64,000 nucleotides of DNA from Mauremys mutica. Its lineage: Eukaryota; Chordata; Testudines; Geoemydidae. Position numbers and translations under genes: made by a program. This document shows positions 978-7,763 of this stretch, piece by piece (the stretch's first letter is position 1; every line of letters starts with the position of its first letter). The notes below the pieces were generated by a model. That model had not been told where the DNA came from, did no database searches, and worked only from the letters and a program-made list of their open reading frames with translations. The DNA lies in NCBI RefSeq assembly GCF_020497125.1, contig NC_059087.1, positions 13,549,925 through 13,613,924 of the forward strand. Reading direction: 5' to 3'.

Positions 978-1154
978 ATGCCCATGGGATGGACCTGTTT
1001 GCCGTGGCAGTCCATGAGTTTGGCCACGCTATCGGCTTGACTCACATCTCTGCCTTAGAGTCTATCATGAGACCCTATTACCAGGGACCGGTGGGGGATC
1101 CCCTGAAGTATGACCTGCCTTACGAAGACAAAGTCAGAATCTGGCAACTGTATG
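978..1154 (+). CDS. MMP17: MMP17 exon: catalytic zinc-binding region
   Basis: This exon encodes the C-terminal part of the metalloproteinase catalytic domain of MT4-MMP. The zinc-binding motif [11 protein letters not shown] is intact (HExxHxxGxxH, three His ligands and the catalytic Glu). It is followed by the Met-turn SIMRPYY and then [13 protein letters not shown]. The exon is entered in phase 1 (first codon completed as D, then [11 protein letters not shown]) after an AG at 976-977. It ends at TATG before donor GTTAGT, leaving phase 1. It is 177 bp. The next intron is only 137 bp. The family is a zinc endopeptidase held at the cell surface by a GPI anchor. The choice of MMP17 over other MMPs rests on the match of this exon and all following exons to the MT4-MMP sequence as I know it, and on the neighbouring ULK1. 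Confidence 0.95.
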
Positions 1155-1404: not shown

Positions 1405-1446
1405 CCACCAATGTCCTTGTGAAGAGTCACCTGAAGCATGGGTGTC
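1405..1446. repeat. Left copy of the 42-bp direct duplication flanking the LTR element
   Basis: The 42 bp from CCACCAATGTCC to GGGTGTC are identical base for base to 5237-5278. Two further bases (GT, 1447-1448) separate this copy from the LTR. The size is far above the 4-6 bp expected for integrase-mediated insertion. Confidence 0.9.
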
Positions 1447-1448
1447 GT

Positions 1449-1877
1449 TGTCACGGAGTGTGGGGGACCCAGGGCCTTCACCCCCGGGCTCCCTACGATT
1501 CACCAGGACTCTCAGCCATCCAGTAAAGCAGAAGGTTTATTTAGACGACAGGAACACCGTCCAACACAGGTCTTGCAGGCACAGATAACCAGATCCCCCC
1601 CCCCGGTTCGGTCCATCTTGGGGGGCCTCACAGCCCCCCCCCGGGGATCAGAGCTCGGTCTCCCTGCTCCTCTCTCTTCTCCAGCCCACTCTCGTCTCCC
1701 AGTCCTCTCCGGCCCCTCCTCTCTCCTCCGCCTCCTTCCTTTGTCTCCCCTGGCCAGAGGTGTCACCTCCCCTCCCCCAGGCCAAGCTCAGCTCACAGTT
1801 TGAATTCCTGACACTCACCTAAACCTCTGGCTCTCCCCTCCCCCGCACAGACAGTCTGTGCTTCCTACTCCTTCACA
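1449..1877 (-). repeat. 3' LTR of the Gypsy element
   Basis: The 429-bp repeat matches 4808-5236 in length, and I see no difference on direct reading. It starts TG and ends CA on either strand. It is C-rich on the + strand, with two long C runs. On the - strand it follows directly after the polypurine tract. Confidence 0.93.
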
Positions 1878-4492
1878 CCTCTCCCCCCTCCGAGACTGAA
1901 CTGAGCGGGGTCACTCCAGCCAGTGACCCGGGGAAGTTCGGACCCACCTACAACCTTATGCCGCCCGCGCCCTTTCCCCACCCTAGTACCCCTGGGGTGC
2001 ACACGGGGCTGGGGCCTTCTCCCCACGTTCCAGTCTGGGGGGCTGTGATTCGGGTTCTCTCGGTTCAGAGCCCCCCTTCTGACCCTGGCCCCCCTCTGGA
2101 CAGGCTCCTCGGGGCGGGGCGAGGGCCTTACAGCCATCTCCCCCCTGTCCCGGGCCCTCCTCCCCCTCTGGCAGACGTCACAGGAGCGGCAGTGCTGCCG
2201 GACATGGGCAAAGACCCCAGGCCAGTAATAGTTCTGCAGCAGCCGCTGCTGGGTACGCCAGGCTCCCTGGTGCCCTGAGGGGGGAATGTCATGGGCCCGG
2301 CACAGCAGCTGGTGGCGATACTCCTGGGGTACCACCAGCTGCCTCCTGATCCCCCCTGACTCCATCTTCCCTGGGGGAGCCCATTCTCGGTACAGGAGCC
2401 CCTTCTCCCACAGGAACCTTTTCCGGCCACCTCGTCCCATGGTCTGTCCCCCCCTAAGGTTGGCCAGGTCCCTTATCCTCCGCAAGGAGGGGTCTTCCCG
2501 CACCGCGGCCTGGTACTCAGCCGCTGGGGCAGGGGCGGGGATCTGCTCTCTCTCACCGGCTGGGTCTGGGGCCACAGCCTCTCTGAGCCCCGTCCCTGGG
2601 CGTTCCCTCCCTACCGGGTCAGGGTCCGGTGTCTCGGCCAAAGTACTTTCCCCGGGGTCAGGGTGCAGAGCCCTGCGTCGACCCTGACTACGGTTCACGG
2701 ACAGGGTACCCTGGGTGTTACTTGGCCAGTCCTCGAGGTCCCCCCCCATTAACACCTCCGTGGGCAAATGTGGGTGCACCCCCACGTCCTTGAGGCCCTC
2801 CTTGTCCCCCCACTTTAGGTGTACCCTCGCGACAGGCACCTTGAATGGGGTCCCGATCACGCCCCTCAGGTTCAGGTAGGTGTTGGGCACCATCCGATCT
2901 GAGCCCACCACCTGCGGCCGGGCCAGCGTCACCTCTGCGCCCGTATCCCAGTACCCAGTGACCTCCTTCCCGTCTACCTCCAGGGGAACAAGGCACTCGC
3001 TCCGGAGGGGTAGTCCCGTGCCCACCCTGTAAACCCCAAACTCAGGGCTGGGAGCATCCAGCCCCTCGGAGGGGTCGACCCGGGGCCCCCCTCCCTCCTT
3101 TGCAGGGGGTACGCGGCCCACCCCCCTTTCGTGCGACCGCTGCCCCTCATCCGGCTGGGTCTCTACCAAGTTGACCCAGTGTGGGGTTGGTCTGCTCAGT
3201 TTGTCCCGGAGCTTGGGGCACTGGCCCCGTACGTGGCCCGGCTGGCCACACTGATAGCAGCCCATGTCTCGTGGGTCCCCTCGAGGGGGACGGCTGGACC
3301 TGACGCCAGATGCTTCCCTTTGGTGGGGGCTCTCCCTCGGCTCCTTCTGGGAGGTCCCATGGTGACTCTCTCTCTGCGTTGAGGCAGACCTGCTCCTTCG
3401 AGACTCCTCCCTGCCATCCCCCGCCCGACTGTCCATGTATTGGTCGGCCAGCCGGCCTGCATGCTGCGGGTTCTCCGGCTTCCGGTCCATCAGCCACTGC
3501 TTCAGGTCAGACGGGCACTGCGCATACAGGTGCTCCAGTACGACTAGGTCAAGCAGGTCCTCTCTAGTTTGGGCCCCAGCCGTCCACTTGCGGGCGTACC
3601 CCTGCGCCCGGTTGACCAGTTGCAGGTATGTGACCTCCCGGGTCTTACGTTGACCCCGGACCCTCTTCCGGTACATCTCCGGGGTCAGCCCAAACTCGCG
3701 GAGCAGGGCCTCTTTGAACAGGTTGTAGTCCCCTGCCTCCGCCCCTCTCATTCGGCTGTACACCTCCACGGCGGTGGAGTCCAGTAAGGGGGTGAGGCGC
3801 CGGATCCTGTCTGCAGGGTCAACCTGGTGCAGCTCGCAGGCATTCTCAAAGGCCGTCAGGAAGGTGTCTATGTCCTCCCCCTCCTTACGCGGGGCCAGGA
3901 AGTTCGTATCGAAGCTCTTTGTAGGCTTGGGCCCCCCCTCACTCACCGCAGCCGGGGTCTTACTGTTGTTCTGCTGGGCCAGGGCCAGTTCATGTCTGCG
4001 CTGCTCCTCCTTCTCTCTCGCTTCGAATTCCCGTTGCTTCTCCTTCTCTCTCGCCTCGTATCCGCGTTGCTTCTCCTTCTCCTCCAGCTCACGCTGGCTT
4101 TGTCTTTCCTCATATGCCCTCAGCTCCTTACGCTCCTCCATCTCCATCCGTTTGATCTCTCTCTCCAACTCCAGCCGCCTGCGCTCCACGGAGGCCGAGC
4201 GTCGCCGGGACGATCCCCTGCTGGCCGGGGGGGTCACGGTACCCTCCGTAGCTGGGCTCCTCCTCCCCCTAGGCCTAGGGGTGGGGGGTCTCGAGGAGCC
4301 CTCATCCGCCGACTGGCCACTCCCAGCGGGTACAGACACTGGTGCCTGCGCTGCATCTGCCCGGCTGCTTCCCTCAGAGACAGGGACCGGTTCATTCCTG
4401 CGATCTCTCTCCTCCAGCCGGGCAATCAGCTGGGCCTTGGTGAGCTTCCCATGGCGCAGCCCCCCTCTGCTTGCACAGCTCCACCAGCTCAC
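1865..4492 (-). pseudogene. Gag-protease-integrase(N) open frame of the Gypsy element
   Basis: The open frame has 875 codons. A charged coiled coil (Glu/Arg/Lys rich) covers about residues 104-175. A capsid/SCAN-like segment covers about 195-355, including LLDLVVLEHL and LKQWLMDRKPE. A CCHC zinc knuckle (C412, C415, H420, C425) follows, then an aspartic protease active site DTGA at 516-519. The integrase N-terminal zinc finger comes next (H734, H741, C771, C774, with YYWPGV between). After about residue 790 the frame reads into unrelated Arg/Pro-rich sequence and stops inside the 3' LTR, marking an internal deletion. The usual gag start appears to lie in another frame near 4514, with a frameshift at the C run around 4461-4465. 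Known from the literature: SCAN domains of vertebrate zinc-finger proteins derive from Gmr1-like gag capsids. Inference: the protein is not autonomous. Confidence 0.85.
1878..1891 (-). other. Polypurine tract of the Gypsy element
   Basis: On the - strand this reads GGAGGGGGGAGAGG, directly before the TG of the 3' LTR. That is where plus-strand DNA synthesis is primed in LTR retrotransposons. Its last two bases (GG) matter for interpreting the insertion ends. Confidence 0.85.
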
Positions 4493-4787
4493 ACTTACGC
4501 TTCTGGGAATACATCTTCCTGCTGGCCGCTCGTAGGCCGGGGTGCTCGCCGCTCCCCACGGGTTCCAGGGGGACCCCTCGTGTGCCAGTCTTTGAGGTCA
4601 CCCCCTCTCTGCCAGGGTCGAGCTGCAGACTCCTCCGCCCCTGGGATCGCTCGCTGTGATCCCCCGGGGGACCCTGTTACTGCAAAGTCCTGCTCTCTGG
4701 TCACACTCGCCCAGGAGTGAATCGCCCCTTCGTTTTCCTGCTCCCCAGTCACTTACTGCAGGAAGCGCCGTCCACGGGGTGCCGCCG

Positions 4788-4805
4788 ATCCCACCGCTGC
4801 CACCA
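4788..4805 (-). other. Probable primer-binding site of the Gypsy element
   Basis: On the - strand, two bases (AC) follow the CA end of the 5' LTR and then TGGTGGCAGCGGTGG begins. A TGG start two bases inside the LTR is the standard position for a site complementary to a tRNA CCA end. I do not assign the tRNA. Confidence 0.6.
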
Positions 4806-4807
4806 GT

Positions 4808-5236
4808 TGTCACGGAGTGTGGGGGACCCAGGGCCTTCACCCCCGGGCTCCCTACGATTCACCAGGACTCTCAGCCATCCAGTAAAGCAGAAGGTTTATT
4901 TAGACGACAGGAACACCGTCCAACACAGGTCTTGCAGGCACAGATAACCAGATCCCCCCCCCCGGTTCGGTCCATCTTGGGGGGCCTCACAGCCCCCCCC
5001 CGGGGATCAGAGCTCGGTCTCCCTGCTCCTCTCTCTTCTCCAGCCCACTCTCGTCTCCCAGTCCTCTCCGGCCCCTCCTCTCTCCTCCGCCTCCTTCCTT
5101 TGTCTCCCCTGGCCAGAGGTGTCACCTCCCCTCCCCCAGGCCAAGCTCAGCTCACAGTTTGAATTCCTGACACTCACCTAAACCTCTGGCTCTCCCCTCC
5201 CCCGCACAGACAGTCTGTGCTTCCTACTCCTTCACA
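4808..5236 (-). repeat. 5' LTR of the Gypsy element
   Basis: This 429-bp copy matches 1449-1877. No difference is visible in either long C run or in the flanking bases. LTRs are identical at integration, so this indicates a recent insertion unless gene conversion or assembly has homogenised them. Confidence 0.93.
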
Positions 5237-5278
5237 CCACCAATGTCCTTGTGAAGAGTCACCTGAAGCATGGGTGTC
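5237..5278. repeat. Right copy of the 42-bp direct duplication
   Basis: It is identical to 1405-1446. It directly abuts the LTR, and its first two bases (CC; GG on the element strand) coincide with the dinucleotide that ends the polypurine tract. Confidence 0.9.
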
Positions 5279-7763
5279 TTCTCAGACCATGGGGTGGATA
5301 CTTCCCTTCAGCTGTGGTTGCAGCAGGGAGTTAAAGCCAGAAGAAGTGGGCAGAGGGGTGACTCCAATACATGTCCCCTCCCCGCCCAAATCATGGCTAG
5401 TTACCAACCAGGGGGTTGGGGATTTTCAGATTGGGAAGGGGGAGGGAACCAAAGGAGTGATTTCTACATACAGGGCTCACTCTCATGGGGACCCACTAGA
5501 TTTCTGAGTGTAGATTCTGAATCCAACTCCAGAACAGCCTTGTTTGCTTGGTCGGGGTAGATGTGTGAAGTGCAGTGGCTCCTAGCAAGAACCTTTGAAG
5601 AATCGTGTGCGGTGCTTTCCCCAAAAGGTGCTAATTCTTCCAGCCTGGGAACCACTGAGGTCCAGCTCATTCTGGCCACTGGTGTCCTGTTTGCATTCTT
5701 TGTTATTACCAATCTCTGTGTAATGTGTGTCCAGAAGAGTTAAAAGTGGCCCAAGGATAAAACCAGTGTGGGTAAGAAGCTTAATGAGATGTTAATTCAG
5801 GACTAGAACATAAATAAGGAATTCAGGGTGTGCTGGGGGATTTTGTAGAAAAGGGAAAAGTGCTGCTTATTAAGGAAAAAGGACAAGATGAATGTCATTC
5901 TTCCTGGGTATCCAAACCCTCACCTATGCTTGCGTGTGTGTGGTATTTTTATTTAAAGAGCTGGCTAATTGGCAAAGGCCCAGATCCACAAAAGTAATTC
6001 TGCCCCTAACATCCATTGATTTAATGTAAGTTACCCTTTTGGATTTGGGCCAAAGCTTATATTTCATTTTGGATTTTCAGAAAGTGCTGAGCACCGACCA
6101 TCTGAGAACTGGGGTCCTTTACTTTTGCTCTAGTTGGGTACCCAAAGTCGCTAGTCACATGTGAAAATCTAGGCTTTATTGTGTGTATTTCAAACAAGAG
6201 GCAAATTTGGTCTACTGTGTGTAAAAATATCTTCATGATGTTTTTAATTAAATGAAACTGTTTATTTTATGTACGAAGCATTTCTCTTCAATGTTGGCAT
6301 CAACACTGGGAGAATCAGATCGTGAAACTCACTGGAAAGAGTATGAAATTGACAAGTCTAGTTTCACACTCTTAAATTGGGGGAAGAGCAGAGCTGTAAT
6401 GGAAATAACATCAGGGTGAAAAGTCAATTAGACTTTTAAAATTCTTTAATTTTAACGACTGAAGATGTTGCTAAGAACTCAGGCAGGGGTTGTTTTTAAA
6501 ATATATGGGGCCAGATGCTCAACTGGCGTAAATCAGCATAAATCCATTGACTTCCATGGGGATACACTGAGTTTATAGCAGCTGAGGATCTAACACAGGA
6601 TTTTAATTTTGACAAGTGTCTCTTGAATAATGAATAGGCAGAGGAGTAGATAATCTATGAGGCAAGACAGCTCTGGGCAGCATATCAGGGGCACGGAAAC
6701 CTTCTCTCTGCTGGTAAAATCCACTCAGAATTCATGAATTACGATTATGCAGCTGATGCAACCCAGCATGGCCTCAGGGGCTTAGTTATATTTGGAGGGT
6801 CCCTTGGATAACTGAAGTGGCGTCTTTAGATTTCTGCTTTGTTCCTGAGAAGCAGGGTGATCATTGGAAGCATGCAAGGATATTCTTTTTTTTTTTTTTT
6901 TTTTTTTACCATGAGGATGAGCAAGAGGCTTTCCTGGGTACGGCCTTTCTATGGAGAGTTTCCTGAATGCTGGTAGGGCTGTCAGACTGTGGGGATGTGG
7001 GGACAATGCTTTATTTAGGATGTGCCCTGCAATGGGATAATTCCATCAATTTACTGACCTGGGTCAGAATCGTGCAGTGGGCTTCTCCTGAGAAAGCCCC
7101 CGAAAGGTAGGGTGAAAAGTCTGAAAGCACAAGGAGGTTCATGCTGGGAGATTTCATCCTCCTCACAGTGTGGGTGAGCTGGGTGCTGTATTGGTCATGT
7201 TGACTTAGATACCCTCTGCAAAGCTGTCATTGTAATGGGCTCGCAGATTCCTTCTATCCTGGCATTTAAAGCAAATCCCATGTAATGTTTTGTGTGCATG
7301 CGTGCGTGCCATCCTCTAGTGATTGAACCACAGAGAGGATAAGGGACCTACTACTACCAGTGAAAGGAATTTTCCTTCAGGTCAAGTAGCAGAGGTCTAT
7401 GTTTTTGGACCTGAAAGACAAGGGTTCTAATCCCAGCTCCTCTGGGGCAGGTGTTTTATTTAGCTAGTAACGATGTTGTCAGAAACCCAAAGATTTGTTA
7501 CATTTCTAGTGGCACAATTGTATCAGTTGCGTTTGTGGCTGTGATGCTTTGAAAGAAGGGAGCTGGCTCTTCCCCTTGGCCACACAGCACTGTATCACTA
7601 AGGTGAAGTCTGTTTTATGGAGTCAAAGGATGCTCAGATACCAGGGTGAAGCCTTGGTTGGGCTCAGACATGTGGCTGGTGTATTATGTAGGGATTGAGA
7701 AGTTGAGAAGGACAGTGCCAGCAGTCTGATATGAAGTTCTTCTAAAAGCAAATTAATTTAAAA
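5279..7763. other. Intron sequence without a gene
   Basis: I see no exon here. Apart from the palindromic repeat at 6511-6592 and a homopolymer T run at about 6884-6907, the sequence looks like ordinary intron. Confidence 0.6.
6511..6592. repeat. Palindromic dispersed repeat (MITE-like)
   Basis: The left half reads CCAGATGCTCAACTGGCG and the right half ends AGCAGCTGAGGATC, close to inverse copies around a CCATTGACTTCCATGG centre. The same unit recurs around 11017-11180. It looks like a decayed fold-back element common in reptile genomes. Family name unknown to me. Confidence 0.55.

Follow-up and report, generated by a model that had tools for sequence, protein, structure and literature searches.

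A 42-bp direct repeat and two extra junction bases at a Ty3/Gypsy-type insertion in the turtle Mauremys mutica

The stretch of the Mauremys mutica genome analysed here (64 kb, hereafter the window) contained a 3.8-kb LTR element on its minus strand that was flanked by a 42-bp direct repeat of host sequence. Among 46 resolved LTR pairs, this window copy was the only one with a long duplication. In normal integration, two bases are removed from each 3' end. At the U5 end of the window copy, two extra bases (GT) lay between the repeat and the LTR, and the best reading of these letters was that AC on the element strand had been kept and never trimmed.

The element, its junctions and its host setting

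The features of the locus are collected in Table 1. As the preliminary description had stated, the repeat was exact, and the extra GT was the same as the dinucleotide between the 5' LTR and the primer-binding site (PBS). When up to three mismatches were allowed, the first 20 bases of the 42-mer occurred at two places only in the window, where 0.01 were expected. A hidden 5-bp duplication was absent from the window site, with GGTGG before the 5' LTR and ACGAC after the 3' LTR. Thus, in place of the 4-6 bp duplication flush with trimmed ends that marks normal integration, the window copy had a 42-bp repeat and GT.

The other junction said less. Both LTRs were followed by CC (1878-1879 and 5237-5238), and it had been proposed that the corresponding GG of the element strand was an untrimmed U3 end. 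However, the left host copy of the 42-mer started with CC too; since CC was present in the host on both sides, the terminal CC was uninformative about the U3 cDNA end. Full independence from integrase would leave both cDNA ends untrimmed and no joint of the integrase type, and here AC appeared to be kept at U5 while U3 was ambiguous.

Table 1. Coordinates of the element, its flanks and the neighbouring exon in the window
Feature	Position	Strand	Evidence
Host exon, matrix metalloproteinase catalytic domain	980..1153	+	Pfam PF00413 (Matrixin), E 1.1e-14
Left copy of 42-bp host direct repeat	1405..1446		42/42 identical to 5237-5278; flank found once in assembly
Two extra bases GT (AC on element strand), read as untrimmed U5 end	1447..1448	-	Same dinucleotide as 4806-4807
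3' LTR, 429 bp, TG...CA	1449..1877	-	429/429 identical to 4808-5236
Polypurine tract before 3' LTR	1878..1888	-	Read from sequence; same motif adjoins sister 3' LTRs
Integrase H2C2 zinc-binding domain	2162..2332	-	Pfam PF17921, E 8.8e-18
Weak retroviral protease match	2738..2998	-	PF00077, E 0.084, below cut-off
SCAN-like capsid segment of gag	3425..3682	-	PF02023, E 2.1e-10
Primer-binding site, 18 nt, starts TGGTGGCA on element strand	4788..4805	-	Read from sequence
Dinucleotide between 5' LTR and PBS, GT (AC on element strand)	4806..4807	-	Sequence comparison
5' LTR, 429 bp	4808..5236	-	429/429 identical to 1449-1877
Right copy of 42-bp host direct repeat	5237..5278		42/42 identical to left copy

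The element had the parts of an LTR retrotransposon, namely two LTRs with TG...CA ends, a polypurine tract (PPT) and a PBS with a putative match to tRNA-Leu, and its SCAN-like segment was that of Ty3/Gypsy elements with a SCAN-like gag. In Gmr1-like Ty3/Gypsy elements, integrase precedes reverse transcriptase. Similar to Gmr1-like and SCAN-gag Ty3/Gypsy elements, the window element had a gag with SCAN and an integrase segment (H2C2) after the weak protease match; unlike them, it gave no Pfam match to an integrase core or reverse transcriptase in the three pieces of its frame that were scanned. The element was best explained as a recently inserted member of a defective family of Ty3/Gypsy-type LTR retrotransposons with a SCAN gag, and the absence of any difference between the LTRs suggested a young insertion.

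The insertion appeared to lie in an intron downstream of the metalloproteinase exon, whose best PDB match was MMP-14 (E 2.6e-9); a putative splice donor was read by eye at 1392, and the element would be antisense to the gene. ARAGORN and Rfam (at gathering scores) gave no matches over the 64-kb window. The 247-bp left flank was compared with the 2.48-Gb assembly in a search that skips very common words, and it had two candidates, its own place and the second 42-mer; no second allele of the insertion site was found in the assembly with this flank. Since the left flank was found only at its own locus, the 42 bp was host sequence lying outside the element. The possibility that it was part of the element, raised in the preliminary description, was also ruled out by the sister pairs compared on this point, none of which had such a flank.

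At the edge of the repeat, the host TGCCACCA at 1403-1410 was complementary to bases one to eight of the PBS. Of 82-bp stretches sampled from the window, about 0.5% contained the octamer TGGTGGCA in one orientation. Reverse transcription primed by host DNA at this PBS-like octamer was set aside as the cDNA joint was not adjacent to it, and nothing was drawn from the octamer for that reason.

Duplications and integrase truncation among sister copies

The preliminary description had proposed a survey of duplication length in other copies of the family. We sought these by LTR search (40 scored of 1854 candidates), by a U5-end pattern (54 genome matches) and by an LTR-start pattern (202 matches, of which the 100 listed were followed), and the resulting sample of LTR pairs was non-random, favouring young and well-kept LTRs. 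An exact 5-bp duplication flush with TG...CA was found in 41 of the 45 other pairs for which both outer flanks were resolved. These 41 pairs represented 39 independent ones because L110/L111 shared flanks with L134/L135 and L152/L153 with L154/L155. The shared flanks lay at distant places of one contig (C1 and C15, respectively), and the pairs, which were in opposite orientation on C1, looked duplicated along with their surroundings. The predominance of exact 5-bp duplications suggested that the integrase serving the family normally trims the ends and staggers its joints by 5 bp.

In one pair (L029/L033, C15:33530940-33534654), the 5-bp duplication GAAGG was kept if the 3' LTR was read without its terminal A, and another (L031/L024, C26:11419048-11422754) had a 7-bp duplication, CCCATGA, in contrast to the family norm of 5 bp. 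There was no target duplication between the outer flanks of L036/L035 or in L103/L057 (C4, 3' LTR near 159434353), where the 3' flank started with AC. The latter, an older relative, was possibly a second untrimmed end or a recombinant, and it was given no weight since its LTRs were only 92% alike.

The tally of 45 included two more distant relatives (L048/L104 and L103/L057) and L037/L107, which was counted after its LTR start was re-read by eye; it left out C2:147735744 and C2:147735769, as well as L095/L105 and L140/L141, whose other ends were not found. Also uncounted were single-ended, truncated or unclear copies, namely L019/L044, L023/L042, L027/L043, L039, L158, L161, L164, L169, L170 (5' LTR with PBS), L168, L176 (3' LTR with PPT) and L171 (end not found). 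Solo LTRs had 5-bp duplications in all 14 cases that could be so classed (L006, L056 and 12 more), a count that left out L021/L045, which lay inside a minisatellite, and L162, which had no duplication and was taken for a 3' LTR with a PPT-like stretch before it. Older LTRs from the survey of AC beyond U5 described below stood outside this count.

Several copies had peculiarities of their own. Both LTRs of L037/L107 (C22) began with a 35-bp tandem duplication of the LTR start. Two 24-base matches to the start of the LTR lay at C2:147735744-147735792, inverted and facing each other with one base between them, some 2.3 kb away from L027/L043, a rearranged copy. A 48-bp host repeat was present in both flanks of L126/L127, beside a normal 5-bp duplication.

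The incomplete integrase of the window copy had been linked to its odd insertion route. This link did not survive a comparison of its 723-bp tail (integrase to PPT) with 43 loci, many of which hold only the other end of an element. The full-length tail was matched at 96-99% identity by 14 loci (L004, L008, L009, L011, L014, L016, L017, L018, L024, L025, L026, L030, L038 and L041), 13 of them ungapped and L026 with 13 gap positions; four further loci matched it as far as the fetched stretch reached, and L042 was without an inner part. Thus, the truncation was a family trait rather than a lesion of the window copy. Moreover, 13 of these 14 sisters were in pairs with an exact 5-bp duplication, the other (L024) being in the pair with 7 bp. 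Therefore, the missing core was no bar to normal integration and could not explain the odd insertion.

The pattern with AC beyond the U5 end had 54 matches in the genome, of which one was the window copy and the other 53 were fetched. In 17 of these 53, a 5-bp stretch beginning with AC was matched exactly in front of a TG. Three more (L096, L099 and L048) were 5-bp duplications as judged by the other LTR, L049 had the flank of L048, and L071, L075 and L098 resembled an altered PBS. The remaining 29, many of them older relatives and L057/L103 among them, were not classed. No upstream repeat of at least 14 bp was found in the 53 copies, the longest having 13 bp (L070), with a scan that reached about 575 bp for 20 copies, 1515 for 30 and 3400 for 3, which is short of the distant partner LTRs of the 29 unclassed copies.

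Possible routes of insertion

We propose, with about even confidence, that the window copy was inserted by uncoordinated, one-ended integration. In this model, linear cDNA would be made normally and its U3 end would be joined to one target strand, probably by integrase acting in trans, as presumably for the sisters. The U5 end would stay untrimmed and keep its AC, and host end joining would seal it to the other strand, where a break about 42 nt from the U3 joint would leave a gap of 42 nt. Filling in of this gap would then duplicate the host sequence. The model was supported by the identity of the two repeats and by the position of GT, which was in register with the LTR-PBS junction. If AC was retained, then the 3' end of U5 was untrimmed and could not have been joined in the normal way.

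One-ended joining was placed ahead of an integrase-free route for three reasons, the first of which was that a working integrase evidently serves the family. Second, three HIV-1 proviruses from Mre11-deficient cells, in the part of that report available to us, had an abnormal 3' junction (one carried a lone extra G, and the other two carried GT with some of the PBS bases) together with an intact 5' junction (PMC2797772). HIV-1 junctions that keep GT, more frequent in repair-deficient cells, resemble the window copy in their unremoved U5 dinucleotide. Third, one of 15 XMRV sites had a duplication of 273 bp, with the U3 end 5 bp short, and this was read as uncoordinated joining in the portion of the article used here (PMC2857682). 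Similar to the window copy, this provirus combined a long duplication with an abnormal LTR end and stood out from sites that were otherwise regular; however, it came from an experimental infection and its U3 had lost 5 bp, whereas the U5 of the window copy would have kept 2.

Several points weigh against the one-ended model. The U3 junction of this single locus would fit integrase joining and end joining alike, and the apparent retention of AC concerns two bases, of which the T may have another explanation, given below. By analogy, HIV-1 would also argue against it, as the repeats measured 3, 2 and 0 bp in the three proviruses with both ends read, none of them long in the part of the source available, in contrast to 42 bp in the window copy, and the normally removed dinucleotide was found at 5' junctions as well (PMC2797772).

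A fully integrase-independent route was a less probable but still plausible alternative. Host end joining would have ligated blunt, untrimmed linear cDNA (GG-U3...U5-AC) into a break whose overhangs measured about 40 nt, with CC as the microhomology. This route agrees with AC at U5, with the absence of the normal 5-bp duplication and with CC at the U3 junction, as an untrimmed GG end could give, but the left host copy had CC anyway. The untrimmed dinucleotides at HIV-1 5' junctions favour it too, as does microhomology of 1-4 nt between the host and the dinucleotide or PBS, which was taken there as a sign of integrase-independent recombination, even though one end was intact in the three HIV-1 proviruses read at both ends (PMC2797772). 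The standard 5-bp duplications of 13 of the 14 sisters with the same truncated integrase also speak against this route. The preliminary description had favoured integrase-independent insertion of untrimmed cDNA; an abnormal insertion with AC kept at U5 was supported by our analysis, and full independence from integrase was no more than possible.

It was quite improbable that the 42 bp was an earlier tandem duplication, the product of later rearrangement or pseudo-TSD recombination, or an assembly error. A host repeat beside L126/L127 provided a parallel in the family, and pseudo-TSDs were discussed by Kahyo et al. (PMC5488345, in the part available). However, a single occurrence of the left flank was found in the assembly, and GT would be left unexplained. 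Moreover, had the element integrated normally within a tandem repeat, a 5-bp duplication should still abut the LTR, and none did.

Similarly little credence was given to a 44-bp duplication with trimmed ends, in which integrase would have made both joints at a spacing of 44 bp or repair would have closed them. The T at 1448 equalled the T at 5280, so that the duplication could be read as 44 bp with a single disagreeing base (1447 G vs 5279 T). This would require that mutation or faulty fill-in had changed precisely base 1447, and to G, at a locus where 0 of 429 LTR and 0 of 42 repeat positions differed.

Long duplications in other elements and significance

HERV-K (HML-2) insertions with long target site duplications were reportedly described by Mamedov et al. 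in 2004. According to the portion of the study by Kahyo et al. that was available to us, eight HERV-K(HML-2) loci had duplications longer than 10 bp, ranging from 13 to 450 bp, and 451 putative duplications were estimated among 622 HML-2 sites (PMC5488345). The preintegration allele was determined there for the 250- and 111-bp duplications, some of the duplications may be pseudo-TSDs, and their origin was left open. At one locus with a 96-bp duplication (4p15.32), two nucleotides lay between the repeat and the LTR. Thus, these elements share with the window copy a flanking direct repeat that is tens to hundreds of bp long and, at one locus, two intervening nucleotides. On the other hand, HERV-K (HML-2) is a primate retrovirus, and in the window copy the extra bases matched the untrimmed end and the LTRs were identical.

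Long duplications at LTR insertions have therefore already been published for HERV-K and XMRV (PMC5488345 and PMC2857682, as available), and the phenomenon is not new. Within the open-access literature searched, the new points were extra bases that matched an untrimmed end and a within-family control, both in a Ty3/Gypsy-type element. Because identical LTRs and identical repeats were accompanied by 45 resolved sister pairs and a diagnostic dinucleotide, the hypothesis of an untrimmed end can be checked in other genomes. A wider and rather unlikely conjecture is that a common mechanism, capture of cDNA with an untrimmed U5, underlies the long target duplications that LTR elements show in vertebrate germ lines, and that the two unexplained nucleotides at the 96-bp HERV-K locus are the same scar. 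If this were true, the window copy would preserve a clean trace of a Ty3/Gypsy element that had bypassed integrase.
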